The notes under the pieces were generated by a model. It saw nothing but the letters and a program-made list of their open reading frames with translations. It was not told the origin of the DNA and searched no databases. Both the position numbers and the translations under genes were made by a program. This document shows, one piece after another, positions 1,415 through 64,000 of a stretch of DNA of 64,000 nucleotides. Source of the DNA: Coffea arabica (lineage: Eukaryota; Streptophyta; Magnoliopsida; Gentianales; Rubiaceae); the NCBI RefSeq assembly GCF_036785885.1, contig NC_092323.1:5000501-5064500 (forward strand). Direction: 5' to 3'. The first letter of the stretch is position 1. Every line of letters starts with the position of its first letter.

Positions 1415-4400
1415 TTAGTATAAACGACCCCTGCAATTCGCAGCTCCGCACAGGCAAGGGGACCCTTCTCCCGGTAATAATTTATAGCGGTAATCATATG
1501 TCAATTCTTCACCCATGGCAATCTGCTCATAAAGTTTAGGAAAAAGGGTTACAGGAGTCTAACGAGAGGCATAGCATTATTAAGGATCGTTGCAGAACTT
1601 GTTAAGAAAAGCCGTTGTATCAGCAAAACAAAACATTCGTGAAAATCCCAAAAATGACAAAATTTAGCGCAAAAAAGAGGTCAGTCCATGAAAAGGGAGT
1701 GGTCGGGACCAACAGTAAAATAATCATGTCATTAAAACGTCCCCATTTTCACAGGAAACTATAGTCCTCCATTAATATTTTTTCCCCTCATTCAAAGAAG
1801 TAACATCTCCATAATAAGTCACAAGTGAATGGAACATAATCACAGCCTATGATGCAAAACATAACTTTGCTTGTCCCAGCCATCCGAAAAACAAAGATAA
1901 CCACCTTATGAAGAAATCAAATGGTACTTACATCTCGACTGGCGTAGAGACCAATGTGTGCAAGCTGACAATCCATGCTTTCTACAATCACTTGGTGATT
2001 TACAAGATTTGGTGAGCAGCTAAGAGCAACAAGAGATGATAAGTGAGCCACAAGATGGTAAAGCAGCGAAACAACAACTTAGCCTTAAATAATAAATTGC
2101 TCCAAAGTACTACTTCTTAAGTCCTGCTTTTTCCAGATTTAAAGATGAATAACTTGGTACCCTGCAGCTAACATGGATCACAGGTCCTTAAAAGCGCTTA
2201 ACCTAGAGAGCTCGAGGTTACAATTCATCTCTCTTCTACTCTATTACTGCTAAGGATCAAAGGGGGCCAGCAAAAAGCTTGGAAACTAAATCCCTGGAAA
2301 CCGAAGCCCATGTTTCAATTCCTTGCCAAAAACGGGGGAAAAATCCTAATGGCATGAAGTGCCAAATCTCCTTCAGACTTATAAAACTCTACATTCAATA
2401 TAATATTCCTTGAGATCAGGAAGTAGTAATTTCCACAATGGGAATAGATATAAAAGTGGTCAAGAAAAAGGAAAAATAGAATCAGATCATCCAAATCTCT
2501 TGCAGGTCCAACCCCTTAGCTACAACATAATTTTCCACAGCTAAGAAATCAAATGTCTTCCCTCACCTGTGATTAATATACCGTGAAACATTTCCATAAT
2601 TTGTTGTATCAATCACAAAGGAGACCTGCCCTTCAGTCAATCTGCTTATGTCGTTTATTTGAGCATCAATTTCGTATAAAAATCTGCAACTATCATTTCC
2701 GTACCTGGTTCTCCAAATACAACAAAATAATAAGAAAATTACAAAAGGCAAATAAACAAATGAAAAAAAAAGGAAGATAGTGAAGATAAAGCTATCTGTT
2801 AAAGATTCAATACAGAAATCAAACCTATTACGCCTCTCACTTGCTTCTTGCTCATTTATGACCTCCCCAATATACTCGCATACAAAGGTGCCTCGCAGGA
2901 TTGCTTCCCTTGCCCTAACTGCCCAACCCTGTAAACCCAAACAGCAACTTAGCTGATACTCCAAACAATCAGAATCAATGATGCGTTATACCTTCTTTTC
3001 TGTTTTGAATATTTCCAATTTCACTCGAATGCCATTCTGCAAAACCCGGTTCTGACAGGTTTTGCTGCAGCAGCACCTTTGATTGCACTCATAAACAAGG
3101 TAACCCTCCTGACAAATTAATCAAAAAAGGAAGATCAGCAATTACTAGCGCTTAGCAATCACACAGACTCTTCATTTGATCCCAGAGCACCTCAGTCCTA
3201 TAACAAGGGTCAACTGTCAGTGATTTGACCTAAAAATGGATCATTTACATTTAGGTTATCCCTACCAGAAACTACTCTAGAACTAAAAAGTAAGCATTTT
3301 CCCAAACTGTTGATGTTCAAAAGTTACAATTGCAAACTTTTTTGCATGCAACCTCTTATGCCTCACTTTTAAGCTGAAAAAGAACGAATTCAGAAACACA
3401 CATAGGTTTCTCATATAAGTCCAAAACCAGTCATGCAAACACTCATACAACATGCCCAAGTCTCCATGTCTGAACCTCTTGTGAAGTTTATATCCTTCTA
3501 TGGAAATTAGCAAACTGGCTTCTCCACGCACACCTATAGCAATACTTGAATCAGACTCGAGAGAAACATGCTCACTTAACCTGGGTTCCCAATTGTAAAA
3601 TTGATATTTGCGCATGTGTGCCGATACATATCATAGTTAAACCTGATAACTTCTGAATTATCAAGATAGGAGTATAACTTGATATGTCTATCTGATCAGA
3701 CAATCTAGTCTTAATCCATTTACTTCTACCTGATGAAACACGTCAAGTTAACAAAAGTCCACAAATCATGAAAAATTAGCATTGCCAAACTGAATTAACA
3801 CAAATTTTAACAACTCATCCTACTCTATTGCACTCAAAAGCAGGGGAGAAGAGGAAAATGCTAAAAGCATAAGGATAATAGCTAAATTCAACTCAGCAAT
3901 TTCCAACTAGAAACAGCAGGGAAGGCATACAAGACCCAATTATATAAATGCAGGTACTTATGGGGCATGAAACCAAAAATCAAGTACCTCCAAAATGATC
4001 CGACCTCTCTCATCATATGGGAAGCGGCCATGCATTGGTTTGCCATATATGTCTTTTGCATCTTCATAGTCATTATCAAAAAGGTAGACATGATCACAGG
4101 TTACAGGAGAGCAAACTGAATGAGCACAAGCACACCCCAACTGTGAACTCTGCCAACAGAGTATATAGATGAAAAGAGACAGTAAGTACACAAACTTATG
4201 TTTGTCCTGATGTGAGACTTGCTGCAAGAAAAACACCAACTACACTAACAAAAGCAGAAGCATCACATAATTTCTTAGAAATTCCTTCTAAGCAGAAACT
4301 AAATGTTTAGTGATGCGAAGTATCAATATTAAACACCATATCATCAGCACCAGATCTATATGCATCCAGAAATATACTTCTGAAATTAGTATAAAAGGAT

Positions 4401-7400
4401 CCATGATAAAATGATCCAGTTATCTACTTTGTAATCAGAATAAAGGCCCTCAGGAAAACTCACAGTGCAAGGAAGTAAAATCCTCCACCGAAAAGAAGTA
4501 ACACTGGAACTTAATACATACTTTGGAGACCAACAGTCAAGCAGGCATCTTAAAACATACTTGAATATCGTCCTCTTTCCATTTTAAAGACCTACTTCAT
4601 TTTTCCACACTTTTCTTAAATATCTCAAACGTTCACACTCACAAGAAATTTGAAAATGAGATAAGAGAATAAGTATGTTTGCCAACATACATAAAGCATC
4701 AAAATCAGAAAGAAATTGAAAATTAAATTTCTAAAATTACCTCCACTTCAAGACCAATGGATTGATCAAGCAATGGTTTTGTAACATAAGTAAAGCTCTC
4801 CCATGGCAGAGAGTGTGCTGTAATTTGGCCATCAGAGCCATCCGGCATGATATGAAGAGAACCCAAAAGGTTTTCATCCACCACACAAGCTATTGGGACA
4901 GACTCCTTCCCAAAACTTATATCATCACATAAGATAATTCTCTCAGCAGAATCTTGGTTAAAATGTCTGGAGTCAATAACATAGTGACACTCATCCATCG
5001 TCCACTCACTGGACACAGGATTCAAAGGAACCAATGATCTAGATACAACTACATCATCCAAAAGAGGCACTGAAGAAGACAATTGATGTGCACTTTCAAT
5101 CAGCCTACATCCTCTGGGACAAATAAACCCTTCTTGGTGCCAGTTGACTAAAATATTTTGCTCACTGCAGAGTTTTGCTGCTTTTAGGTATATTCGCTCC
5201 GGCAAGGTTCCATATTTTGCCGCTAATGAGGCTTGCAGGCTTACCTTGCAGCAAGCCAAGCGAGCAATTGATAAGATTTCTAAGTTACTTGGTCGTGGTT
5301 TTGTTCTTTTAATCTCTGAAAACAATACCTTTGCAACAGCTGAGCATTGAGAATCTGCCAGTCTACCAAGACTAGCTGCATCAGGCTGAACGGATTGGAC
5401 ATTAAACTTTGCTGCACTGACCAAACTCGTTGCCTGAATGTGTTTCTTCATGTTTTGAGCACTTCTGTTCCTAATCCTATATGACGCTGATCCTATACCT
5501 TTTCTAAACCCAGGTCGAGTGAGTCTTCCTGATTTCAGTTTTTGAGCATAGAGACGAAGGCCTCTCTTTGGGAGGCGAGGATCAGCAGGAGTTGGCCCCA
5601 TATGAGCCGCTTGATGATGGCGGCCCAGATCAGGTAGCAAGTCAAACTTCAAGCCACAGAACCTGCAAATGTATTTCCGGATGCTAGACTGACTCTCCGG
5701 GTTCCGATCATCTACTGCAGCTGACTTCTCTTGACTAGGATTCTGCAGAGTATCATCAACCACAGAAAGATTAGGCTGCTCAACAACACTTGATTGCTTG
5801 AAATTATTAGGATGAACTGATAGTACATGTGACCACAAATCCTCGGGATTCCCAAAATGGCTACTGCATGGAATACACTGGAAAAGCATACATTGTTCAA
5901 CAAATTGCACCCGGTGCCTCTCCTGTACATGTGTTTCCAAGACTTTCTTATTGGTAAAAGAATCCAGACAGATTGCACAAACATAACCTCTAAACAGCCA
6001 CTGAGCTTCTTTCTTATGATGGTCCATCCAGTGCGTACCAAGTGTTTGATCATCAAGAAAATTTTCAGAACAAAGTTTGCACTTTATACTGTTCTCATTG
6101 TTTTGATCATTTTCTACTACCATTGGGACTGTGACAGGTTCATCAAGAGAGGTGGAAGCCTGCAAATTTTCCTTCACGCTGAAGCCCCACAGGCTTTCCA
6201 ACCTTGCCTTTTCACTGCAGACTAACATCAGTAAGAACTGCCCAACTCTAACATCTTTAGAAGCTTCAGATAAGACCCACTGAAATTGGACTTCCTTAGG
6301 AACAGGGTTCCTCAGAGACAGTATACTTTTAAACAACCTATAAAAGAGTTCACAAGCCTGGTGTAAATTCAACTTTTGCTCCATTAAACGGCAGTCTTTC
6401 AGGAGTTCCATGAAAACTTCCTTTGAAATTATCCGACTCTTGCCATTCCTAGCACGTTTTAACCAGCTAGGAATATGTTTTTCACAGTACAAAGAATGTC
6501 GTTTTGGACTTTCTTGGCAAGGTTCGAAGCCATCCTGAGACCATAAACCTATGCAGTGAGCCATCTCCTGGATGCTATAATCTTCCCGTGGTTGCTCAGG
6601 CAAAGCAAGTGAACAGCTTCTGTCGAAGGCTTCTCCACCGATGACTTGGATAGGCTTTACATGCAAAGGAGCTTCATTTCCTCCAGATATTACAATTTCT
6701 TTGCAATCTGTGGTTTCTGATCTCATTGAACTCTCTTCATGCTTTCTTTTGAGCCTATTCTCAGGCAAACTTGAGGTGAGACCTTGGTCATCTTTTGGTC
6801 TATGTTTCTTGCAAAAAGAAGAACCAAGCAAAGAGCGATGTTTACATTTAGTGCCAAGGACTGTAGTACCTTCACACATAGGTGAATCTACAGGTGTAGC
6901 TGATTCAATTTTTGATAAGCTGCCGGAAAAACGGGAGGTTAAATGCACACAACAATAAACATCACCTTCATTCGCCCATCGTACGCATCGCCTTCCTTTA
7001 TGTTCAATGAAAGCTATGCATTGGCGACTCTTACCAACGGCATCTGAAGAACTTACACAAATAGCACCACTTTCAGGAGTCAGTTCCACATTTTTCAACT
7101 GCATGACATCAGAATTTCCAGTTTCAACAACAATCTCAGCCCATCTATCAGCAACAGTACCTGGGGAGATAGGTTGAGCAGTTGCCTCCACAGATACTGA
7201 ATCTTTAGATGGCTCAGAATCCAATGATGCAGTGTTATTGAGATCACCATTGAAAAAAGCAGAGTCAATTTCAACTGCAACGTCCTGATGTGAACTCTGA
7301 ATAACCTGTGCTTGTGAACCATGCATTTCAGCACGACGAACTTCGAGTTTAGGCCTCTTTCTGCTCATTTGAATCCCCACTGTCAATGGACTATCATTGC

Positions 7401-8905
7401 TGGGTTGCTCAAGATCACCACCACTTGAAATTGGATTTGACATTGAAAACCATTTCATCACCTCATGTTTCCAGGTCCTCCACTCAGTGCTCAAGTCAAG
7501 CTGTGCTGTTGCATTTGAAAGCGAGTGCACTTCATCCCAAACAATCGATTCAACCAATTCCTGAAGCAGAAAGATGGTAACCATGGAATGTTGTTACGAA
7601 GCAAGTTTCAAACTTCAATCAGTATTACTGTTGCAAGTAAACAAATAGATACATCCCTGTTGAGTTTCAAATTGGAAAATAAATATTTAGAGGGGAAAAA
7701 AAAAGACAATGAAGAAGGCCATGACATATATGCAAATAAAGCCAGGTATCATGAGTTTAGAGCATTCAGGTAGACAGTGAACAGAATTCCCATTCAGCTA
7801 AGTATAACTCACGGTTTTGCACCATTTCATCTTTGGAGGAGACGCAAGGCATTTGAGAGGGATTTATGCTAACATCATCACAAGTTTTGTCTAAACAAAT
7901 TTTTGAAGCACTATAGGCCAAGACTAAAACTCAAAATGCAAGAAATTGACCAGAATAACAGGATATCAGAGCATTTATTATTAAGAAGCTAATTCTTTTT
8001 TCTTTAAAATGAAAATGACAAGTGTTTTTGGAAACAACTATGTGCCTTCTCGAAAAATAAGACATTGCTGCACAGACTAGCACCACAAGGTAGGATCCTA
8101 CCTCCTTCAATATTTCAACACATTCGGCGCTATTTGCATTCTGACATCGTTGTATCCAAGATGGCAGAGAGTGTTGCAACCAATCTGCGTTGATGCAGCA
8201 CTGCAGTATCATCTGAGACAGTAAAAGCGTAGCCTTTGCATCAGTCTAAAACAACAAAAACAAAGTCCGCACAATAACAGAGCTCAATGTTCATCCTCCA
8301 CATTAAGCATCTCACATATTCTGGCTCTACAGCATAGCACAAGAGTGGAAGGGTAGATCAGCCAAAGTGACTTTTACAACACCACCATGTCAATCTTTTT
8401 CCTCTTGGGCCATAACAAACCAAAAGGAAAATCAATTTACATCTTCTTGAGAACCTTAAACAAAAATGAGAGTCTAGGTTCACAAAATCAGGAAGCATCA
8501 GAACAAAGCATGTAACCCTGGAAATGTTGTTGACATGTATAGTATGAATCCCCATGACAGTAACTAATCCACAATAATCAGTTCAATCAGGTCTGCTGGA
8601 TCACTGTCCAACAATCAAGTTAATAGTTCAACTGCTGGAAAGCAGAGCAGCATATCCATACCAAAGGCAAAAATTCCCAGTTTATGTAACAACATGCGTG
8701 GAATTCCGAGACAGATGCATGGAAACTAACAAAGTGCATATCCGACAAGCATCAGATGAATGTATGGAATTGTCAGGGTACAATTACAAGAATATGTATC
8801 ACACAAGAACATTTTCGACAATAAAACTTGATCTGCAAGATCTGCAGTGCTTGAAAGCACAAGACCTTCCCTTTGTGTGTGTGAAAACATCTACAAGTGA
8901 TTGGA

Positions 8906-15890: not shown

Positions 15891-16329
15891 TGGGGCCCAG
15901 ACGTACATCGGCCCCGGGCCACGGACAGCCCAGCCCGACCCACGAGCTCGGACTGGAGGTGCTGGGCTACGGTTTCAGGTCGGCCCATTCGGGCGCTGCC
16001 TCTCAGGCGTATGGGCCTGATGGGCTGCGAGGTCCGCATCCTTAGGCTTGTGTCATGGAGCCCTAGGAGTCACTCACTCCAGTAAGGACTCCTTGTCCTA
16101 CCAGGAAGCTACTACCTGAGCATCTATAAATACTACACAAAAGAGAGGCACCAGGTACGCTATTCATAGCACAATCTCTACTATTTCACTTACAAATCTT
16201 CCTCTGACTTGATCGTCGGAGTTGCTACAGGGGACTCAGCCCCGCAGCTCGCCCGCGTGCAGGTCGGACGATTCAGCTCGCTCCCTAGGCACCCGGTCAG
16301 GTCGGACCTTCACTTCGGCAGTCGCATCA
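15891..16329 (+). repeat. 5' LTR of the gag-only element
   Basis: It begins TGGGGCCCAG and ends GCATCA. A TATA-like TCTATAAATACTAC lies within it at about 16120-16135, plausibly the element promoter. It is nearly identical to the repeat at 17768-18205. Confidence 0.9.
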
Positions 16330-16379
16330 ATTGGCGCCGTCTGTGGGAACACGTTACTTTTCTTCGCGAATCATGCCGA

Positions 16380-17767
16380 AAACAAGGTCTCAGAGGAACG
16401 CGGGTGCATCTAAGGGGAAGGAGCGAAGCGCCCCCCTAAATTCTCATCGGGATCCGAAACCCGAAGGAGCAGGGGCGGGGCCTTCACGGATTCCGCCTGA
16501 ACAGCTGGTGCAAACGGTGGCGGCAAACCTGCCCACCTTCGAAGCGATCGTGGACTACCTCAAAGGGCAGTCGGGAGGTCAATTCGACAAGGAGCCTAAG
16601 GTCCAAGAAGCCGACCTGTCAGAATCCCGAACTGGGAGCCCCAATCACGGGGCCAAGCGGGCGCGTCGGGAACTCACGCGAGAGCAGGTCGAGGTCGTGG
16701 AGCCATCTCACAAGAACTCCCGAACTGAACATCCGGAGCCCGTCCGGGGGCTCTCCCCCCGGAGGGAGCGACAACAGGTACAGGACGAGCTGGACCTGAT
16801 GCTTGACCCGGAGGCGGACAGGTACATTGCTTCCCTCTTTGCGCTTGACATCGAGGAATACCAACTGCCCGCGAAGTTCAAAATTCCAACCATGAAATCT
16901 TACGACGCTACTACGGATCCGGAAGACCACCTGTTCGTGTTCATGACGCAGATGCGCTTACAAACGGCCGCAGATGCGGTCAGGTGCAAGACCTTCCCGA
17001 TGTTCCTAGAAGGAAGGGCTCGGCAGTGGTTCCAGGGACTTCCCCCCAGATCGATTAGTTCTTTCACTCAGCTCGCGCGACTGTTCTCAGCACAGTTCGT
17101 TTCTTCACGAGCCTTCTCCAAAAGCACCGCTCACCTTATGACCATTCAACAAAGGGTCGAGGAATCACTGCGTGAATACATGGTGCGGTTCAATAACGAA
17201 TCCCTCCAGGTCCGCGACCGAGATGACAAGGTGGTCATGGCTGCCTTCATTAACGGGCTACGGAAGCAGAAGTTATACACCGAGCTCGTGGAGCGACCAC
17301 CCAAGTCAGTTCGGGAGATGTTGGATCGAGCTCATGAGAAGGCCAATGCTGAGGAGGCCAATCGCCTGAAGAGCGCACAGGAGAGGCAGAGGGATGACAA
17401 GCGCAGAAGGACAACCGACCAGGGGGACGTGCGACGTGACCAAGGGCGGAAAAGTACCTATGACCACCCGCCTAGAAGCCGACCCTTAGGGGCAGACAAG
17501 CCTTGGACTTCCCTCACCGCCCCCCGAGCTCGGGTCCTCGCGGTGATGGAGCAGGAAGGGCTATCCCGACCTCCCCGGCCCTTGGCCGGGGATAGAAGCA
17601 GGAGAGATCAGAAACTGTACTGTGCGTACCACAGGGATGTGGGCCACGACACTGAAGACTGTCGCCACCTTAAGAAGGAAATTGAAAAGCTGATCCAGAG
17701 GGGTCATCTTGGCCAGTTCGTCCGCGAAGGGCGAACTAATCAGAAGCAAGGAGGATTCAAGCGAGAT
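16380..17767 (+). other. gag region of the gag-only LTR element
   Basis: One long frame with a Retrotrans_gag-type core (about 16900-17330) containing RQWFQGLPPRSISSF and an arginine/lysine-rich segment after it. A Cys/His cluster near 17620-17670 (CAYHRDVGHDTEDC) is of the kind found at the end of Tat-lineage gag. Gag would form the particle and package element RNA. With no polymerase of its own, mobility would depend on enzymes from a related full element. Confidence 0.85.
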
Positions 17768-18205
17768 CGGGGCCCAGACGTACATCGGCCCGGGCCACGG
17801 ACAGCCCAGTCCGACCCACGAGCTCGGACTGGAGGTGCTGGGCTACGGTTTCAGGTCGGCCCATTCGGGCGCTGCCTCTCAGGCGTATGGGCCTGATGGG
17901 CTGCGAGGTCCGCATCCTTAGGCTTGTGTCATGGAGCCCTAGGAGTCACTCACTCCAGTAAGGACTCCTTGTCCTACCAGGAAGCTACTACCTGAGCATC
18001 TATAAATACTACACAAAAGAGAGGCACCAGGTACGCTATTCATAGCACAATCTCTACTCTTTCACTTACAAATCTTCCTCTGACTTGATCGTCGGAGTTG
18101 CTACAGGGGACTCAGCCCCGCAGCTCGCCCGCGTGCAGGTCGGACGATTCAGCTCGCTCCCTAGGCACCCGGTCAGGTCGGACCTTCACTTCGGCAGTCG
18201 CATCA
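17768..18205 (+). repeat. 3' LTR of the gag-only element
   Basis: Direct repeat of 15891-16329 with about three differences. It ends GCATCA before the flanking TAAAAG. The gag frame is open into the beginning of this repeat. Confidence 0.9.
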
Positions 18206-36500: not shown

Positions 36501-36799
36501 AAGCATCTATTTTTGCAATAGGTGGGCCGAGGTCGTAGATAACCTCGGCCATTAGCTCTTGTAATTGGGGCCCGAGGTCATTCACCTCTTGCTTTTCGTA
36601 CTTCAATAAAGTTGGCTTTTTTAGTCTTGCATATTTTTGCCTTCTTTTCAATTGAGTTCAATTTTTTCTTTTAACTACTGTTTTGTCCCCTTATTTGTCA
36701 CTTGTAATGAAATAAGAACGAGTGAGAAATAACTTAAAGAAGTGAGATTTAAGAACACGTACCCTTCAAGGGTAATACAACTTAAGGTTCTTAGTATGC

Positions 36800-38000
36800 C
36801 AAGTTCGGGGCACACGCGAACCATCTCGGTAAGTCAGTTTACAATATCCATTTTGGCTGGACTCAATAACACGGTAGGGTCCCTCCCACTTGGGGTTAAG
36901 TTTTCCCTGGGGTTCAGTTCGACTAACCGAATTCTTCCGGAGTACCAGGTCTCCTGGACTGAACCTTAGGTGTTTGACCCGAGCATTGTAATAACCAGTC
37001 AGGATATTTTTATAAATAGCAACTTTGGCCGCGGCCATATCGCACTTCTCTTCGGCGAGGTCGAGATCAATTCGCCGCTCCTCTTCGTTGACCTTGGCAG
37101 CGTACGCGGCCATTCGCGGGTTGGGAGTGATGAACTCGGCTGGAACGACAGCCTCGGATCCATAAGTTAGAAAGAACGGTGTTTCTTGAGTTGCTGATCT
37201 CGGCGTAGTTCGGTAGGACCACAGCACGCTGGGGAGCTCTTCCATCCATGACGATCCAGCCCGGTGAAGCCTGGTCTTGAGGCCATGGAGGAGAGTTCGG
37301 TTAAAGTTTTCGGCTTGTCCATTTGCCTGAGGGTGTCCCACCGAGGTGAAGTGCTGTTTAATTCCCAAGTTTTCACACCACGTCTTGAAAGGATTGTCCG
37401 CGAACTGTCTGCCATTATCCGAAATGACCACCTGGGGCAAGCCGAAGCGACAAATCACATTTTTCCAGAAAAATTTTTGAACGGCCACTCCGGTGATGCT
37501 TCTCAAGGGCTCCGCTTCGACCCATTTGGTGAAGTAGTCCACCGCTACCACCACGTAGGTATAATCGCCTGGAGCCCTTGGAAATGGGCCGATTATGTCA
37601 GTTCCCCACTGCTCGAAGGGCCACGGCGAGGTGATAGGAATCATAAGATTGGTGGGTTGGTGGTGCTCAGGGGCATGGTGCTGACAAGAAGGGCAGCAAA
37701 TGACCATGACCTGGGCATCTACCCTCATGGTGGGCCAAAAGTACCCAAGCAGCAAAGTCTTTTTCACGAGCATCCTGAAACCGACGTGGGCACCACAGAG
37801 TCCCTCATGAATGTCTTGAAGAATTCTGTCGCCTTCTTCTGGGGTGATACATCGTAGCCATGGGCCGAGGTAGGACCTTTTGTACAAGAGGCCCTGTCGA
37901 AGGGCGTACCGAGCTGCTTTACGCTGAAGTTTGCGTGACTCAGCTCGGTCTTCAGGGAGTTCACCTCGGCTGAGGAATCGGACTAGCGGTCCCATCCAGG
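36800..38000 (-). other. Integrase region of the Ty3/gypsy element
   Basis: Contains the HHCC-type zinc region with CCPSCQHHAPEHH, an rve-type catalytic core beginning near PFEQWGTDIIGPFP and including VISDNGRQF, and a C-terminal segment ending in a GPYRV-type chromatin or DNA contact region. Fossil polyprotein part, downstream of RNase H in gypsy order. Confidence 0.88.
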
Positions 38001-38149
38001 TGTCCCCAGGATAGATGGGATACACCTCTTCCCCTTCGTACCCCGGTTCGGCTAAAACTTCTACAAGGACCGTTTTGTTCAGGTCAGAAAAAGAGGTAGA
38101 AGCGAGCCGGGAGAGAGCATCAGCTCTCCTGTTCTGTGACCGCGGTATC

Positions 38150-39830
38150 CTCTAGATTTCAAAAGACTGGAAGTGTGCTACTAGCTGGAGGACCTTGGAG
38201 AGGTATCGATGCATCACCTCTTCCCTGGCCTCGTATTCGCTTAGTATTTGGCACACGACGAGTTGAGAGTCGCTATAGACCATGATATGCGCGGCCCCGA
38301 GCTTACGAGCTAACTGCAGGCCGGCGATGACTGCTTCGTATTCAGCTTCATTGTTGGAAGCAGCAAAATCAAACCTCAAGGCATACGAACAAATTTCTCC
38401 TTGGGGATCTTCGAGGAGCAAGCCAGCTCTACTACCCTCACTATTGGATGAGCCATCCACATGCAAGGTCCATCGTTGAGGCTCGGCGGTGGACGAGGTG
38501 GTAGCCTGGGTAGTAGCCGGGATGGTCTCATTCACTTCCTCAAAAGTAAGCTCGGCAAGGAAATCCGCGAGAACCTGGGTTTTAATTGCCGTGCGAGGCT
38601 CATAAGATAAGTCGTACTCTCCCAACTTGATGACCCACTTGGTGAGGCGTCCAGAGGCCTCCGGTCGCGATAGGACCTGCCGAAATGGTTGGTCTGTCCT
38701 CAGGCAGACGTGATGGGCCAAGAAGTAGGGCTTAAGCCTACGAGCTGCATGAATTAAGGCCAACACAAGTTTCTCCGCCTGAGTGTACCTGGTCTCCGGA
38801 GCTCGGAGGACTCGGCTTACATAATAAACAGGTGTTTGGACACCTTCCTCCCTTATCAGTACCGCACTTACAGCTTCAGCGGCAGCAGATAGGTACAAGA
38901 TTAACTTGTCCCCTGGGCGAGGTGAAGTGAGTGTTGAGAGGTGGTTGAGGTACTCCTTTAGCTGCTCAAACGCCTGTTGACACTCTTCAGTCCAGTAGAA
39001 GTTGTTGGCCTTTTTCAGGACTTTGAAAAATGGCAATGCCTTGGAGGCTGAATGCGATAGGAACCGATTCAGGGCGGCCAATCGCCCCGTCAACCTTTAG
39101 ACATCGCGGACGCACCGAGGTGGAGACATTTCTTGAATTGCTTTCACCTTGTCTGGATTTGCCTCAATACCTCGCCTGGAGACGAGGTAGCCCAAAAACT
39201 TCCCCGAAGTGACCCCCAGGACACACTTCTTGGGGTTTAGCATCATTCGCGTCTTCCGAAATACTTCCAGGACTTCTTTCAGGTCGGCAAGGAATGTGGA
39301 GGTTGTCCGACTTTTGAGGAGAATATCATCTACGTAGGCCTCAACCACCCGGCCGATCTGAGACTTAAAGGCTTGGTTAACCAAGCGTTGGTATGTGGCC
39401 TCGGCGTTCTTCAGTCCGAAAGGCATGGTGGTGTAACAATACGTGCCTCGGTCAGTGTAGAAGGCAGTCTTCTCCTGGTCTTCCGGACTCATCCCGATCT
39501 GGTGATACCCCTTGAAGGCATCAAAGAAGCAGAGGACCTCATAACCCATTGCTGAATCCTCCAAGGTATCAATCTTGGGCAATGGGTAGCAGTCCTTGGG
39601 ACAAGTTTTGTTGAGATCGGTAAAGTCGACGCACATTCTCCAAGCTCCGGTGTCCTTCTTTACCATGACTGGGTTGGCTAGCCAGGTCGGATACTGGACC
39701 TCCCGAATGATCTTCGCAGGGAGGAGTTTATCCACCTCTTCGCCAACAGCTCGGCTGCGCTCGGGATCGAGGTGCCTTCTTTTCTGCTTGACCGGGCGGA
39801 CTTGGGGGTCGACGTTCAACTCATGTATCA
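38150..39830 (-). other. Reverse transcriptase and RNase H region of the Ty3/gypsy element
   Basis: The reverse transcriptase half shows VDFTDLNKTCPKDCYPLP, the polymerase active-site region AYVDDILLKS and the FLGYLVS motif. The RNase H half shows a connection domain with YYVSR and an RNase H core with LHVDGSSNSEGS and NNEAEYEA, including the usual second RNase H found in Tat relatives. Fossil polyprotein, spread over more than one frame. Confidence 0.88.
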
Positions 39831-39869
39831 TGAGGTGATGCGGGACCCCTTGAACCTCCTCTGCGGCTC

Positions 39870-41099: not shown

Positions 41100-42460
41100 G
41101 AGGTTCTCGATCTCCTTTTTGAGGTCGTTGCAATCCTCGGTTTCGTGCCCTATATCCCGATGGTACAGGCAGTAGAGGTTCGAATTCCTCTTATCCCGGC
41201 TGCCGAACATCTTGGGAGGTGCCTTTCCAAGATTGTTTGTTCCATTACGGACAGCACCCGAGACCGGCTAGTGTTCAAAGGAGTCAGCTCGGACTCAGGG
41301 ATAGGTGACTTCCCCTTGGATATCCTGTCGAACACACTACGACGATCTCGGCCAGGGCCTTGGAAGCCACTTCCTGTCCCCACCTCAATTCGGCCAAGCT
41401 CTTTTCCCTTTCGGGGGTCGGTCCTCGGGCGAGCAGCTTGAACCTCCTTTTTCATGCGGTTGAGGTTTTCGGCTTGTATGCCCTTCTCAACCTTTAACCA
41501 CATCTCGTGGAGGGTGCGGGGATATTTCTTGTGAATCCCCGTGTTGAACATCCCGGAAACGAGCCCATGGGTGAAAGCGGCGATGGTGACCTGCTCATTA
41601 GGATCAGGTATCTGCACGCTTTCTTCATGGAACCTCTGAACATACGACCGAAGTGACTCACCCGGGTTCTGCTGCATGTTCAGCAGGTAAGCCGAGGTTC
41701 GGGTCGTAGGTCGGGATGAAATGAACCTATGGAGAAATCTTTCCACCAGTCCTCCCAGGGTTGAGATGCTCCTAGGTTCTAATCCCCAGAACCATTTTCG
41801 AGCTGTCCCCTGGAGGAATACTGGGAAGACTCGGCATATGACGGGGTCAGCGATGCAGTATAAGCGGAAGGCCGAGATGAAGGTATCAATGTGATCCTCG
41901 GGATCACCTCGGCCGTCATAAGACGGTATCGCGGGAAGCTTGAAGTTTGGAGGAAGCCTTTCCTCGTTAATGTCGTCAGTAAAGGGCGGGACCCTCATAT
42001 AATTCACCCCGGGTATTCCCAGGGGCCGAGGTTCTTCCTCAGGTCGTCGCCCCAGGAGACCTCGGGAAAAGGCCTTAGTTAGGGAGGCTACCTTGGAGGT
42101 GGCCTTGGAAAACGCTCGTTTCGACGCACTCCGGCTTAGGCGCCTCCCATCAGACTCCTCTTCAGATGAACCTTCAGGAGATCCATCTGACTTTCTTTTA
42201 GAGGACTCAGCCTTCTGCTTGCCTTGCCTCTTTAAATATCTTCCCAACTCCTTGAAGATGTTGGGGTTCTCGGTTAAAAACTCGGTCATACGAGTGATGG
42301 CTTCTTCGTTTGCGGGCTGGGTCTTCGGAGACTCATGCCCTTCGAAAATATCTTCCTGTTGAGCTGTATTGCTTTGCTCAGCACCAATGGTGAGAGCCTT
42401 CCTGCTCTTAGAACGCGCAGGCTTCATACTCTGATGTCTTCGCGTTCCCACAGACGGCGC
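41100..42460 (-). other. gag region of the Ty3/gypsy element
   Basis: Starts just after the primer site and carries a Retrotrans_gag-type core near 41.5-42.0 kb with RKWFWGLEPRSISTLG and GESLRSYVQRF, preceded by a Ser/Lys-rich N-terminus. It is related to, but clearly distinct from, the gag of the gag-only element at 16.4-17.8 kb. Confidence 0.85.
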
Positions 42461-42464
42461 CAAT

Positions 42465-43016
42465 TGAAGAGGTGATTTTCGTCCCGCTGGAGTGAGTCGC
42501 CCGAACTGGAGAGGTATTCTTATTTTGGGCCACTCTCTTGAACGTGGTCACCTGCTCAGGTAATAAGAGGGGCTGGATCCCCCGGTATAACTCCGAAACT
42601 CAAGTTAGTTCGATTGTAAAGAGGTAGTATAATAGGAGGGAGTAGTATGTTACCCGAAAATTGGTTCTCCCCTTTCTCAATAGAAATGTTGAGAATTTAT
42701 AGAGGAAGGATAGGAGAGAGGGACTGCCGGCACGTGTCCATAAAGATCTGAGATGGTCAGTGCATCCGGTAGACTTGACCGATCTTTATGAGATGTGAGG
42801 GGACATCTGTCAGGTTCAGGCGGCGTATCAGAGCAGCCTTCCCAGGTGTCAGATGTGTCAGGAGTCACATCGTACCTTTCTACAGTTATCAAACACTCAA
42901 GCGTCACTTTGGCTAAGATCGTTAGCCGAAGTGGTAACGAGATGGGTTCCAAACCAACAGGTCTAGCCGAGGTGGCACTTCAGGAGGCACTCCATAAGCC
43001 GAAATGACCATCCTCA
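42465..43016 (-). repeat. 5' LTR of the Ty3/gypsy element
   Basis: Direct copy of 33323-33874, next to the primer site at about 42446-42462 and followed by CAAGT at 43017-43021. Confidence 0.93.
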
Positions 43017-55715: not shown

Positions 55716-56780
55716 GGTTAATTACAGTTTATCCTCTTGAACTTGATCCGTTGTAACACTTTGCCTCCTTGAACTTTAAATAAATATACTTTGCCCTCTC
55801 TATTGACTAGTCAAATGCTAATGATTAATTATCCATCCAAAAATGTAATAAAATGATGTTAATGCTCTTACATAAAAGTTCTAGAATAATACTATCCTTT
55901 TAATCGGAATATAAAACATTTTATTAGAAAAAACACAAAGTCATATGATTTAAAAATTTTTTAAAAAATAAAAGATGGTATTAAACCAAAGAATTGAAAA
56001 ATTGTATTATGGAGAAAAAAAGAATTTAAACTTCCTAAAACATCTGCATGAGTTTTTCATCGCTTATCTCTCTTCCTTTAAATTATAAAATTGTATTATG
56101 GAGAAAAAAAGAATTTAAACTTCCTAAAACATCTGCATGAGTTTTTCATCGCTTATCTCTCTTCCTTTAAATTATAAACGGACTAATTTTGATAATTTTC
56201 ATTTACTTTGTAGCTATCACAAGATTTTCATGATTCAATAAATGCTATTTGGTAATTTTATATCACATTCATACCTTACTTTGTATTATATTTGCATTCT
56301 ACATTAAAAAAATTGAAAATTCTCTAATACATTTTTCAATACATTTTTATTTTTATCTCATATAAAACACATAAGAAAGTGGCACAATAAAAAATATAAG
56401 CAAATAATTTTCATTCCAAATGCACTAAATAACTTTATTTCATTAAAATAAGTATTGCTATTGGCATTGAGATAAATACATTGAGTTGGTTAGACTTCTT
56501 TCTATGAATTATCTAATTCATTTTAACACTAAAAGATCGAAATACATGGTGTAATTGTGTTTAGATGCATTTAGCAACTATTAAAGAAATATGTATTTAT
56601 TATGTTATAATTATTATGTGCGTTTAAGGATTAGCCAGGGATATTTTGATCATGAAAAAATATAACTTCATCTTAACCTTGTCAAAAAGTTGACCATAAG
56701 GGATAAAGTGTATATATTTGAAGTTGAAGGGGCAAAGTGTTACAAGGGTCCAAGTTTAAGGGAGCAAAGTGTAAATAGTC
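55716..56780. mobile_element. Non-autonomous TIR transposon, MULE-like
   Basis: About 80 bp at the left end (TTACAGTTTATCCTCTTGAA and on) recurs inverted at the right end (TTACACTTTGCTCCCTTAAA and on, read from the right), with GTTGTAACACTTTGCC-type blocks in both. The 1.06-kb interior is AT-rich and non-coding and contains an 89-bp perfect tandem duplication. Target duplication not identified; ends are approximate. Confidence 0.6.
56001..56178. repeat. Perfect 89-bp tandem duplication
   Basis: 56001-56089 and 56090-56178 are identical head-to-tail copies, starting ATTGTATTATGGAGAAAAAA and ending CTTTAAATTATAAA. They lie inside the TIR element. Confidence 0.92.
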
Positions 56781-57952: not shown

Positions 57953-59907
57953 TCATTCAAGTTGAGCATACCATATTCCTTGGATTTTTACTTCCTTGGG
58001 GGCCTTTGATCCCAAGTCAGTGTCAGATGGCTGAACGCTCTCAAATACTCCAATCACTTCTCCAGTTTCAGGCTTGCTCTTGGTTACGCTCAAGGTGATC
58101 TTCCCTGATGAAGATGAAACGTTCTTGATGTTTTCCTTCACAAGTTCCTCCTCGTCTCCTCTGCCTCCAGCAGGCAATGCAACTGCACTGTCATAACCGG
58201 TAGATCCACCCCTGCCCTTTGGGTCAAGGAAGGATGAACCTCTGTATGATGGCACGAGAAATTCACCGCTGAAGCTCTCTGGTTTGCCTGAAGCAACTAG
58301 CTGTTTGATGGTGAAGAGGAATGGCACGCGCTCACCCCCGGGAAGCTGAACTGTAACTGCAGCATAGTCGATTCCATCCTTTTCGACAAATTTTATTGTT
58401 CCATCAGTATTTACTTCAAAGGGTCCTTCAATCTCATCAAGGGTGTAGGTTAGGCGGGTCATGAGCTTGGTCTTTTGGAACTCTGGGGGTGCATTCTTGT
58501 TAGCACCCTCAGCCTTCACAGTGAAGGAAGTGGGCTCCAAGCACAGCTTTTTGGCATCGTATTTGCCGGGCTTGAAGGCAAATTTGTCAACACCGCCATC
58601 AATGGTTGGGCACTGATTTGCAGTTCCAGTCCCCTTTACTTCGAGGTATGTCTTGCTCTGGATTTCATCATAGGTAAGCCTTTTTGGCACTCCCTCAGCG
58701 TTTGCTCCCTAATGACCCATCAGTAAGTCACATTTTTCGAGTTAGTCATGCTACTAGAATAGATGGCTCCCAAAATGATTGTAAGAAGAAAAAAGGGATG
58801 TCCTCAATCACACACAGTATAGATGACAACATTCCGGAAATGAATTCTGCAAATTTAGAATTTTAAAGACCAATCTTAACGAGATTGCACTCTAAGTGTC
58901 AGTTCTTCACGACTTCCTTTTGTTTTATCTTTTGCAGTTTCATTTAAAGCTTTGGTCACTCCAATGCATTCAACAAAATTGTATAAATATATCAAGCTGC
59001 AAAAACATCTTGTCACTATCCACCCTATTCTTATAGCTGAGCGAGCCATGTAAGCTGTCCCCTGTAAAACCAGGGACAAGGATTTTCTCTTGCACATCAC
59101 AAACATACATGCTACATGTCCTACGCTATTTCTTCTTGTTATTTGTGGTTATTAATAGTATCTTCTCATCCAGAGTCAAACGTGGTCGTTGCTTTTCCAG
59201 GTAGTATCTGATATAACGTCCATTCTTTTCTGAAGCTAGTTGTACAAACAATTTCACAAACTTCAAATGCTTATTTCACAAACTAGTTGTACAAACAATT
59301 TGTGTGAAAGGCTGAAATTCAGATAGGGAAAAGTGCTTCTGATGTGGATGATATGAATGGTTACATCTGTCCAATTTACAAACTTCAAATGCTTATGAGT
59401 GTCTTGACAAAAATAAGGAGCTGGTGGCAGTGATCACTAGTATTAATTTTCAGAATCTTGTCACGCAACATTCTCCAAATCCTCCTTTAGCTAGCCTAAT
59501 TTCAACTTCTTGTCAGTACATGCATGCTATACTAAGGACATCTGACTCTATTGAACAATTGTTAGCATCTCAATACACTCCTGCTATTGTTAATTCACGA
59601 TCACAGTCGGTTATACTTACAAATCATGTTTAAAATGGAATCGTGGTAAATTATCAAGGCTACCTACCGAGACAACGAGGGCAGAAGTGGCCAGAGCGAA
59701 GCCAGCAACCTTAGCTGCATCAGTGCACTTCTGAGCCAAATCCTTGAGATCAGCTTGAAGAGAGCAAGTTAGCCTCGCCGAAGATTGTTCGACTCCGAAA
59801 GCCTTGCTAAGGTTTGGAGAAGATCTCAGCTGGACGTTGTTTCGGGATGCAACACCAACCTTGGCAGGTTGCATGAGGGTAGCGGCTGCTTGTAGTGAGG
59901 CTGCCAT
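57953..59907 (-). CDS. PSBO: Oxygen-evolving enhancer protein 1 (PsbO, 33-kDa)
   Basis: Two exons, 59668-59907 and 57953-58708, give 331 residues, the usual precursor length. Residues 1 to about 84 form a bipartite transit peptide: a Ser/Ala-rich stroma-targeting part, then a thylakoid lumen signal with [17 protein letters not shown] and the ANA processing site. The mature chain starts [20 protein letters not shown] and contains [29 protein letters not shown], the [20 protein letters not shown] motif and GRGGSTGYD near the middle, ending in [10 protein letters not shown]. It is a lumenal extrinsic subunit of photosystem II that stabilises the manganese cluster. The mature protein looks intact. 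The intron lies just before the processing site and holds short internal repeats. Confidence 0.98.
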
Positions 59908-60044
59908 TGTCTTCTTTCTCTGTTCTTGATGATTACTCTGCTCCTATCCTATGCCCCCCTGAATCGCCCTTACAAAGTAAGCAATAGGAAATGATCTGTG
60001 TGGGAGAAGAAGTACAAAAATATTTTGGTGGCTTTGCTCTGAGT

Positions 60045-60068
60045 AAGATAAGAGATAGGATAAGGTCT
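60045..60068 (-). promoter_or_regulatory. GATAAG (I-box-like) cluster upstream of psbO
   Basis: AAGATAAGAGATAGGATAAGG contains two GATAAG cores about 140-155 bp upstream of the psbO ATG. I-boxes are common in promoters of light-responsive photosynthesis genes. No clear TATA box was seen. Confidence 0.4.
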
Positions 60069-60084
60069 TCTTTCATTGGTTACT

Positions 60085-60957
60085 CTGATCTAATGTTACT
60101 GGATTTATGACTTGCCACCTGGCAAACTTGGTGTTTTGGATAAAGATACCAACTCCTGCAATCAGGCTGGACGTTGAATGACAGCCACGTTTTTGTTTGA
60201 TTTCTATAGCCAAAATCAAAAGGAGAAGAAATGCAACAACGAGAAAACAAAGCGAAAAAACCACTGAGCTTGTTTCAATGGCCACCAAAGAGGGATTTGA
60301 TTTAAGTTTCTTTTTGAGTTGTAGGTGAAGGTTTAAACTCCATTTGTAATAAAAAAAATTTAAGAGTGGTGCCAAAATATTCGTTTGATCTAATCAGATC
60401 TATATATCTATTAATTTCTAATACACAAGTTTTTTTAGTCGCCTTCTTTTGTACATTAGGATAGAAAAAGTTATATAATTATTATCGTCGTCGAAAAAAA
60501 AAGGAAAAAAATTTGTTGGTTTCCCAAAATAAATTAAGAAAACAAAATCTTGTTATTCACTTTTTCGTGGTGGAGGAATTTGGGCATAGATGCCTGGGAG
60601 CCGGAAAGGTGAAGGTCAGATTGTATTCGGCTGGGGATAAAAATCTCATCTAATTCTATATTATGCTTTTTGGTGTTTTCATCTATAACTTGTGAAAACG
60701 GTTTTTATCTGTCATTATGTGAATTCCTATCAATGGGAGTGCTGAACTTATTAAAGAATTATAATTCTTATTGAAAGTCAGAAAATGGACAGGAGAGCAA
60801 GCAAGCTGCATAGGGTAAACAACTTATTAAAGAAATGATTACTTATTGAAAATCACAAAATAGTCTGGAGAGAAAGTAAGATATATAGGGCAAAAAAGAG
60901 AGAGAGAGAGAGAGGAGAAAAGTAAAATATATGATAGGGTAAACAAAACAGTGACAA
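60085..60957. other. Intergenic / psbO upstream region
   Basis: No gene recognised. A (GA)n run lies at about 60898-60915. Confidence 0.4.
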
Positions 60958-61031
60958 TGGCCCATGCAGGTCTCGAACCTGCGACCTTCGCGTTATTAGC
61001 ACGACGCTCTAACCAACTGAGCTAATAGGCC
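60958..61031 (-). tRNA. tRNA-Ile (anticodon AAU)
   Basis: The minus strand reads GGCCTATTAGCTCAGTTGGT at the 5' end, anticodon loop GCTAATAAC, T-arm GCAGGTTCGAGACCTGC, and 3' acceptor strand pairing ATGGGCC with discriminator A. 74 nt, full cloverleaf, no intron. The A box (TAGCTCAGTTGG) and B box (GGTTCGAGACC) are canonical. This is the nuclear-type plant tRNA-Ile(AAU), read as inosine at the wobble position. Confidence 0.97.
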
Positions 61032-61538
61032 ATGCGATGTGGTTAATCAAATTTATTATTCTAGCTTTCGTTTGCCATTATCCATCGCCACACCTCAAAA
61101 CCAAAACAGAAACATACTGAATAACAAAATTGCAGTTCAGTGTTTTAGTTACATCATAATGTTGAGTTAATTTATAATTTGAGAAACTTTTCTACTACTA
61201 AGCATCATGATACCAAAAACGTATGCTATAACACATAATTCCTATATTTTCAAATGTGTTAATGTCCAATATTACTATTACCTATGCTTCAAATTTATTA
61301 CTATAAACGATCAGCAAGCCTCTTTGCCTCATTTACACAATTCTATAAACATAAGAACATGAAACAATGTTGGGAAGTTCTCTAGTTAATTTATGGCAAA
61401 TCAAACTACTAAAAAGGAGATTGTAAAATATGAGCTACTTTCCATTTCTTGCTTCGCGTGTCCAATTTATTTGAGTCGATTAATAGCAAGTACTGTGATT
61501 TCCCAATGCACATAAAGCTTGGAACTTGCACTGCATAC

Positions 61539-61578
<40 letters not shown>

Positions 61579-61634
61579 AAACCTAAAAATTTATTTACTG
61601 TACTGTATTTCATAGCAAAGTATTGTGATAATTC
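61032..61634. other. Intergenic spacer with (AT)n
   Basis: No gene recognised. An AT microsatellite spans 61541-61571. The PLATZ-like gene's upstream sequence is presumably here. Confidence 0.4.
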
Positions 61635-62473
61635 ATGATGTCCAGTGGAATTGATCAACCGCAGTGGTTGACCCCCGTTCTCCAATCCGTAACGTTCTAC
61701 AATGATTGTAGAATATCAGGCCATTCTCGGAAGGTAATCTACTGCATAACTTGTATGGATGGACCTATTTGCGACAAGTGCTCATATCTTTCTCACAATG
61801 GCGCCACGAAACCATACGAGTAAGATTCTTCTTTACATTGATATTTTCTTCTTAATGTGATCTGTACCGAGTTACCTTAATGTTATATAGTTGTTGTTAT
61901 TATAGGTTTTTAAAGCATCGTATGGAGTGTCTATCCGAGCTAATCATATCAGGAGATATATGGATGTTTCTGGCATACAGCCCTTTTTAATTAACTCCCA
62001 CCAAATTTTCTTCCTACATTCAAGAGGAAAAAGCATGCTCCAAGTGTGCGATATGCAAAGGACACGTTAAAGGGTCACAATATAAATTTTGTTCGATTGC
62101 CTGCAAAGTAAGGATTATTTTGGAAATATTATTGATATGCCGTTGTTTTAAATATGCTATACACAAAAATTATTTGTTTCTTTGCAGGTTGGATTTGGAG
62201 TTGAACCCATCGACCTTGATCCTGTTGATCAAGCTTCAGAAAAGCCTTCAATTGATCGGCCTTCAAATAGCACCATAAAGCCTTCAATCGGAGTTGAACC
62301 CCATTAATCCTGATCCTGTTGCTCAACCTTCAGAAAACATAATAAAGCCTTCAATTGATCAACCTTCAAATGCCACAATAATACCCTCAAATGGTACGAA
62401 AGAAGGCGAAGTCTCCACCAGTAGAAGGAAAAGGAGAAGAAAAGGGATACCTCATAGATCTCCCCTGAAGTAG
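61635..62473 (+). pseudogene. PLATZ-family zinc-binding protein, degraded
   Basis: Exon 1 (from 61635 or 61638 to 61820) encodes DQPQWLTPVLQSVTFYNDCR then YCITCMDGPICDKCSYLSH, the PLATZ N-terminal zinc motif. After an intron with acceptor near 61949, RYMDVSGIQPFLINSHQIFF matches the next family block. The following CSKCAICKGHVKGSQYKFCS lies in another frame. A third exon from 62189 holds two copies of a VEP-DPV-Q-S-KPSID segment, the second shifted by one base. The normal family C-terminus KRRRKGIPHRSPLK closes at about 62473, again off frame. At least two frame changes separate homologous blocks, so it is most likely a pseudogene. Unannotated introns or base-call errors are less likely alternatives. 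Intact PLATZ proteins are nuclear, AT-rich-DNA-binding regulators. Confidence 0.65.
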
Positions 62474-62514
62474 TTGGTTGAATTGTGGTCACTACAGTTA
62501 ATCCTTTATATTTA

Positions 62515-62795
62515 GGAAAATTTGCCAAATTGGTCCCTAACATTTACCAAAAACACTTTTTTAGTCCCTGACATATAAAATCAGCCAAAATGCTCCTTCA
62601 CATTTAAATTGTGAGCCAATTTGGTCCTATTGCTCGTTTTTGCTCGTTTCTCCGGCTAAAAATAGCACGTCCCTCTCACGTTGTCATATTTTTAGGGGCA
62701 AAACCGGAAACACATTTCATTACCGGTTGAAAGTAAAAGGATAGGGGACCACCACCAAAATACACATTTTACCTTTGGCTCTCAAATTACCCTTT
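62515..62795 (+). repeat. Left terminal inverted repeat of the Pack-MULE
   Basis: Contains in order ATTTGCCAAATTGGTCCCT, TTTTTAGTCCCTGACATATA, GCCAATTTGGTCCTATTGC, AAAATAGCACG and TTTGGCTCTCAAATTACCC, each recurring inverted at 63590-63869. Confidence 0.9.
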
Positions 62796-62802
62796 ACTCT
62801 CT

Positions 62803-63252
62803 ATGGAGCCACCGGAAAACGACGCCGTGGCTATTGCATCAGCTGAGAAAATCATCCTCCGCTGGGACTCCACAGCCTCCGAGGACGCCAGGGACAGAAT
62901 GATCTTCGACGGCGATCGATATGAGATCGACAAATACTTCCAAGCCGTGGATGAAATCCAACGGTCAATGGAATCCGCCAGCATCTCAGACGACTCTGCT
63001 AAGGCCAACAGCGCGATCCAGATCACCATGGCCCGCCTGGAAGACGAGTTTCGCAATATTATCATTGCTCAAACTTCCCCTCTCGAAGCCGACACTCTGA
63101 CCGATCCCAGCTCTTGTTCCTTCCGCTCCATCGCTTCTATTGGCAGCAGCGACGGCCACTTGAGCTTGCTGCCGCCGCCGCCGCCGTCCCTGCACACCGA
63201 GGAAGACGACTTCACCGAGACCAACTTGGCAAGTTTGGTAAAGAAAATGTGA
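62803..63252 (+). CDS. Captured EXO70 N-terminal fragment, open frame of 149 residues
   Basis: The ATG at 62803 lies just inside the left inverted repeat. The frame begins MEPPENDAVAIASAEKIIL and runs through RWDSTASEDARDRMIF, EIDKYFQAVDEIQRSM and IQITMARLEDEFRNIII, the conserved N-terminus of plant EXO70 exocyst subunits. A Ser-rich loop and a proline run (LLPPPPPSLH) follow, ending at a stop at 63250-63252. Full EXO70 is about 600-700 residues, so roughly 500 C-terminal residues, including the membrane-lipid-binding end, are missing. The part retained corresponds to the N-terminal coil that joins the exocyst core. It may be an inert transduplicate or may be expressed from the repeat. EXO70 paralogue type not assigned. 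Confidence 0.8.
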   Translation: MEPPENDAVAIASAEKIILRWDSTASEDARDRMIFDGDRYEIDKYFQAVDEIQRSMESASISDDSAKANSAIQITMARLEDEFRNIIIAQTSPLEADTLTDPSSCSFRSIASIGSSDGHLSLLPPPPPSLHTEEDDFTETNLASLVKKM

Positions 63253-63589
63253 TCCTTCCAGGAAACTTAGCCTTTCTTTTCGTGTGATTCCTTTGCCTAA
63301 AAGGGGCGGCTCAAGCATCATGTATGGAAGGTGCACAAAGTATTCAGGATGCCACAAAAAACTTCACTCATTCAGCGAAATCTTCTCGCCAGATCAGGGC
63401 ATAAAGCTTGTGAATTCTCCATTTTCCAATCTAAGGGTGACCATTCACTCTTAAGTTGAATTGTCCAATTTTCAAGATTGATTATAACAAAATTGTCCAT
63501 TCACTCTCAAATCACCTTTGGCTCCATATGCTTGTTAATTTGGGGATGCAAATAGGGTTTCTTGAAAGGGTAATTTGAGAGCCAAAGGG

Positions 63590-63869
63590 AAAGGGTAATT
63601 TGAGAGCTAAAGGTGAAATGTGTATTTTGGTGGTGGTCCCCTATCCTTTACTTTCAACAGGTAATGAAATGTGTTTCCGGTTTTGCCCCTAAAAATATGA
63701 CCACATGAGAGGGGCGTGCTATTTTTAGCCGGAGAAATGAGCAAAAACGAGCAATAGGACCAAATTGGCTCACAATTTAAATGTGAAGGAGCATTTTGGC
63801 TGATTTTATATGTCAGGGACTAAAAAAGTGTTTTTGGTAAATGTTAGGGTCCAATTTGGCAAATTTCCC
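63590..63869 (-). repeat. Right terminal inverted repeat of the Pack-MULE
   Basis: Inverted counterpart of 62515-62795, ending CCAATTTGGCAAATTTCCC before the 9-bp target copy. Confidence 0.9.
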
Positions 63870-63878
63870 TTATATTTA

Positions 63879-64000
63879 CTTGGTTTGTTAATCCTTTATA
63901 TTTACTTGGTTTGTTAATCCTTTATATTTACTTGGTTTATCCTTTTATAGTTAACAATCATTTTGTTCTGGTTATTATCTGATGATTTATTTCTTCTAGT
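63879..64000. other. Flanking sequence, short tandem repeat
   Basis: About three units of TTATATTTACTTGGTTTGTTAATCC-type sequence (23-25 bp each) follow the element. No gene seen in the remaining bases. Confidence 0.6.

Follow-up and report, generated by a model that had tools for sequence, protein, structure and literature searches.

The window, i.e. the whole stretch of 64,000 nucleotides of Coffea arabica DNA analysed here, contains several genes and mobile sequences besides the element under study. A minus-strand region (2566-7593) that resembles SUVR5 combines a piece of a SET domain with a long exon encoding C2H2_3rep zinc fingers. A retrotransposon gag domain is found in a plus-strand frame (16289-17893), and separate minus-strand frames (36769-39867) encode a reverse transcriptase followed by an integrase, which is the Ty3-type order; a long frame at 41150-42547 (minus strand) may be the gag gene of the latter element. 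An 89-bp tandem duplication with 100% matches (55998-56178) is either very recent or an assembly effect. Closer to the element, an exon encoding an almost full-length MSP domain (photosystem II manganese-stabilising protein) is located at 57956-58708 (minus strand), with a candidate first exon recognised by eye further upstream (~59660-59910), and a tRNA-Ile (AAT) gene (60957-61032, minus strand) lies near a copy of a PLATZ gene. The genes present, such as those for the manganese-stabilising protein and PLATZ, are those of a plant host.

The PLATZ copy (61635-62473, plus strand; ATG at 61635 or 61638) is situated upstream of the element and on the same strand as the frame carried by it. Its domain matches are split over two frames, which overlap at 62021-62037 with no evident intron between them, and the frame leaving the domain stops at ~62307 if spliced at the visible GT and AG. 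The likely tail is found near 62300 in a different frame again, and the stretch ending at 62473 in this other frame presumably corresponds to the usual PLATZ C-terminus. Because the domain changes frame without an evident intron and the tail lies in yet another frame, the copy is probably a pseudogene, barring sequence errors. Its end is separated by 32 bases from the target-site duplication of the element.

Structure and insertion site of the element

The element has a length of 1355 bp (62515-63869). Its left terminal inverted repeat (62515-62795, plus strand, 281 bp) starts with GGAAAATTTGCC, and its right terminal inverted repeat (63590-63869, minus strand) comprises 280 bp. Alignment of the two arms yielded 280 ungapped columns with 6 transitions and 3 transversions as well as one 1-bp gap (K2P 0.033), and a BLAST comparison of one arm with the other returned an E-value of ~1e-131. 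When the 64-kb window was searched for extra copies of the arms (BLAST, E<=0.01), none was detected but a 24-bp piece within the element. The arms are flanked by a target-site duplication, TTATATTTA, whose left and right copies occupy 62506-62514 and 63870-63878, respectively; as the bases flanking the two copies are unlike, the match is exactly 9 bp. The preliminary description of the locus had placed the element at these same coordinates, which proved exact to the base once the window had been read and the two arms aligned, and the inverted repeats of ~280 bp and the perfect 9-bp duplication that it reported were both recovered.

The left arm contains a TATAAA box at 62574, 229 bp 5' of the ATG of the captured frame, and a single short upstream ATG frame (62590-62607). 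An identical box is found on the minus strand of the right arm (63805-63810), both boxes facing inwards. The inner end of the right arm is spanned by a 25-bp tandem duplication (2.2 copies, 63563-63618; repeat finder), which is limited to this arm and is perhaps a trace of capture or gap repair. This tandem-duplicated inner arm recalls the MULEs with multiple long terminal inverted repeats (PMC3310237), but that class, as described there, requires arms of at least 50 bp, whereas the unit seen here measures ~25 bp and occurs on one side, which places the element outside it.

The insertion target was a 26-bp tandem array, called by the repeat finder at 63866-63938; the first four bases of the array as called are the end of the element. 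Once the element had been taken out along with one of the two duplication copies, the joined flanks yielded three identical 26-bp units in register, which is the empty site predicted by a 9-bp staggered insertion. The possibility that the 9-bp duplication is an artefact of the adjoining tandem repeats was rejected, because the ends of the element are set by the arms and the array continues in register across the joined flanks.

The captured EXO70 fragment

The interior carries an open frame of 149 codons (62803-63252, plus strand), whose ATG sits 7 bases past the left arm. A Pfam search assigned an Exo70_N domain (PF20669) to residues 11-87 (62833-63063, plus strand), with the match covering positions 2-81 of the 83 in the model at 51.4 bits (cut-off 23.9; E 1.3e-13); it is nearly complete and far beyond chance. 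Five sequences were returned when the frame was compared with the PDB (E<=10), one of which is convincing, namely the Exo70 family protein 7pp2_A, aligned with residues 8-98 (E 5.7e-05), the other four being weak. EXO70A1 (4rl5_A, E 0.33) was rejected as support, since it is outranked by a viral chain that is unrelated (8ydl_A, E 0.034). An N-terminal EXO70 fragment that is open for 149 codons, as initially proposed, is thus borne out. The length of the frame is by itself only mildly unusual: when the interior was dinucleotide-shuffled 1000 times, 25 of the shuffled sequences also reached 149 codons.

At 0.55, the G+C content of the frame exceeds that of the arms (0.39) and of the window (0.41). 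The values for its three codon positions (0.52, 0.44 and 0.70) show a coding-like periodicity, which fits any recent capture but also a constrained gene. When the first 141 residues of the frame were compared with viral contigs and with prokaryotic genome contigs, 12 and 60 pattern matches were obtained, respectively, with 0 confirmed in either case, as expected for a plant gene.

At ~63231, the G+C content falls from 0.57 to 0.40, and the EXO70 coding part probably ends at this point, in which case the last ~7 codons of the frame may lie outside the EXO70 coding sequence. The A+T-richer interior beyond the drop (63231-63563) is without Pfam match: two short peptides from this region gave none at E<=10, one of them also lacking a PDB match, and a scan of all six frames revealed no further Pfam match. 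A second captured gene in this region is thus not supported by the Pfam searches of the peptides and the six frames.

The vicinity of the boundary was also inspected with a view to the reading that a longer gene uses the frame as its 5' exon, which would be spliced to sequence within or past the element. A donor-like site (ttg|GTAAAG) is located at 63238, near the G+C drop at 63231, together with a GC-type donor at 63229; acceptor-like sites follow downstream, both in the element (63253-63261) and beyond it (63940-63950 and 63990-63999), and the window stops at 64000. Such short motifs are, however, frequent by chance, as illustrated by the 11 GTRA sites found with a loose scan in 62803-63869, whereas the strict donor pattern is matched at one site (62611). 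An EXO70 intron may begin at 63238, and an intron in the EXO70 donor itself could account for this site. Moreover, the frame lies wholly between arms that are flanked by a target-site duplication, and since the empty site reads as an uninterrupted array, an ancestral host gene lacked such an exon. A chimeric transcript formed after insertion is possible yet unsupported, and we consider the spliced-exon reading highly improbable.

The N-terminal region of the fragment is strongly acidic. Residues 1-83 include 20 acidic and 9 basic residues and have a net charge of -11.5 at pH 7, corresponding to a net charge per residue of -0.138 (-0.125 over residues 1-100). The fragment may resemble EXO70D (subclade D), and EXO70D has been linked to autophagy. 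The loose pattern [WFY]xx[LIV], which describes the ATG8-interacting motif, matches the frame 3 times; 2000 shuffled versions average 1.4 matches, and 15.6% of them attain 3. The motif count being within the shuffle range, it was not accepted as evidence for an autophagy decoy acting via ATG8-interacting motifs. In PMC12626893, the N-termini of Exo70II proteins are described as negatively charged on average, with subclades E and H as exceptions that have lost the charge. The N-terminal helix of the fragment is likewise negative, a comparison that concerns the sign of the charge, and the captured EXO70 gene was, to judge from this charge, probably of the acidic Exo70II type.

Classification and persistence of the open frame

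Scanning all six frames of 59050-64000 against Pfam (E<=0.1) revealed no transposase domain, with the sole matches being Exo70_N and, outside the element, PLATZ. MULEs have been delimited by terminal inverted repeats of at least 50 bp together with a target-site duplication of 9-11 bp (PMC3310237) or, for the duplication, 7-11 bp (PMC4858842). The arms described here (281 and 280 bp) are 96.4% identical, the duplication is exactly 9 bp long and its removal restores the empty site, a host-gene fragment is present (PF20669, E 1.3e-13; 7pp2_A, E 5.7e-05) and the scan of 59050-64000 was free of transposase domains, all of which supports the earlier assignment as a Pack-MULE. Judged by these sequence features, the element is real, well-preserved and Pack-MULE-like in each criterion tested, and ordinary in kind. 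Long arms, a 9-bp duplication, a G+C-rich gene fragment and the lack of a transposase are shared with the Pack-MULEs of rice, maize, Arabidopsis and tomato; according to PMC3310237, captured sequence is G+C-rich in rice and maize, and the minor size peak of tomato MULEs (1300-1400 bp) takes in the 1355 bp of the element. The captured gene is the only respect in which it differs from known Pack-MULEs.

A literature search restricted by licence retrieved no report of EXO70 inside a MULE. In the excerpts obtained, an EXO70 gene is named only among the host genes of a sugarcane clone (PMC3418495), Exo70 only as an NLR-integrated domain (PMC5819176) and Exo70A1 only in an expression section (PMC6593362). 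The cereal NLR receptors with integrated Exo70 domains (PMC5819176) likewise carry an Exo70 piece outside its own family, but the element is without an NLR partner and its likely mover is visible.

The locus is very probably explained by capture of the 5' end of an EXO70 gene by a Mutator-like element that is non-autonomous, was moved in trans and has since most likely been inert. An element without a transposase of its own would have acquired the 5' end of the putative donor gene and would then have been mobilised by a transposase supplied from elsewhere, inserting into the 26-bp tandem array just past the end of the decayed PLATZ copy, the position at which it is found today. After insertion, it may have been weakly transcribed from its arms or by read-through and was perhaps silenced via arm-derived small RNAs, with the frame presumably having stayed open so far through youth and not through selection.

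If the arms were identical at insertion, their divergence implies ~0.0165 substitutions per site per lineage. With assumed substitution rates, the age of the element amounts to ~1.3 to 6.6 million years, a range that is indicative only. Neutral decay of the frame was simulated with 4000 replicate runs for each setting, the present sequence rather than that of the donor serving as the starting point; indels were introduced at an assumed 0.15 per substitution, with 80% of them frame-breaking (between the arms, a single gap accompanies 9 substitutions). At 0.0185 substitutions per site, which is slightly above the value implied by the arms, the frame was still open in 78% of the runs when only substitutions were allowed and in 29% when the assumed indels were included; at 0.0107 substitutions per site, the corresponding figures are 87% and 48%. 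Simulated neutral decay thus often leaves the frame open, so that its openness, which the preliminary description had offered as a hint of function, does not provide evidence of selection. It would be even less surprising if the arms had already differed at insertion, because the element would then be younger. When the assumed indels are included, the simulated probability that the frame stays open through neglect is only ~0.3, which leaves room for constraint. A function of the fragment is unproven and, on present evidence, unlikely.

Possible effects on EXO70 and wider meaning

One way in which the element could act is by yielding small RNAs through which the donor EXO70 gene is repressed. 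Captured sequences in the Helitrons, Pack-MULEs and Sireviruses of maize have been characterised as reservoirs of siRNAs that act on donor genes (PMC13317346), although this review passage speaks of the maize elements as a class. The inward-facing TATAAA boxes of the two arms (62574, plus strand; 63805-63810, minus strand) might permit convergent transcription and thus give rise to antisense RNA of EXO70. When folded as one RNA, the element reached a minimum free energy of -713.5 kcal/mol, a value that has no shuffle baseline at such a length, and the predicted fold consists of a long stem formed by the two arms with EXO70 as the loop. It had been suggested that transcription of the inverted repeats could give small RNAs against EXO70, but a single hairpin puts the arms rather than EXO70 in the stem, whose products would match the arms. 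With EXO70 in the loop, small RNAs against it would need convergent transcription from both arms or secondary synthesis, and we regard repression of the donor gene by this route as unlikely.

The fragment might also act as a protein. Expressed from the arm, the small protein would bind exocyst subunits through its N-terminal helix and compete with full-length EXO70, an idea that accords with the presence of the Exo70_N domain without the membrane-binding end and with the TATAAA box at 62574, 229 bp before the ATG and with one short upstream ATG frame. Such competition, as put forward in the preliminary description, has a precedent inasmuch as overexpression of MpExo70I residues 1-70 arrests growth in Marchantia, but overexpression of the MpExo70II helix (residues 1-83) leads to a mild growth defect only (PMC12626893), and the fragment is acidic as in Exo70II (-11.5 over residues 1-83). 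The published effect, moreover, came from induced overexpression, and the Arabidopsis proteins belonging to the negative subclades B, C, D and F are diffuse and not at the cell plate (PMC12626893). According to the same paper, negative N-terminal charge accompanies dissociation from the exocyst, and charge reversal in MpExo70II failed to restore Exo84 binding, which indicates that charge is not the whole story. The notion that an isolated EXO70 helix can compete therefore stands for the overexpressed MpExo70I helix, whereas for the present fragment, being like the negative Exo70II members, it loses most of its force and appears very unlikely.

There is, finally, a very slight chance that the frame is translated from a promoter in the arm and under selection, its free acidic Exo70II helix being a decoy that sequesters, away from the exocyst, a partner of that EXO70 paralogue. 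If this were true, a transposon would have made a regulator for a specialised EXO70 pathway.

Pack-MULEs are abundant, with more than 3,000 in rice (PMC13317346, PMC4858842), so that a single new one matters little in itself. The element is nevertheless a clean example, since its tandem-array target allows the empty site to be reconstructed from one sequence, and the recent work on the N-terminal charge of Exo70 leads to the concrete prediction that the fragment would have at most a weak disturbing effect on the exocyst.
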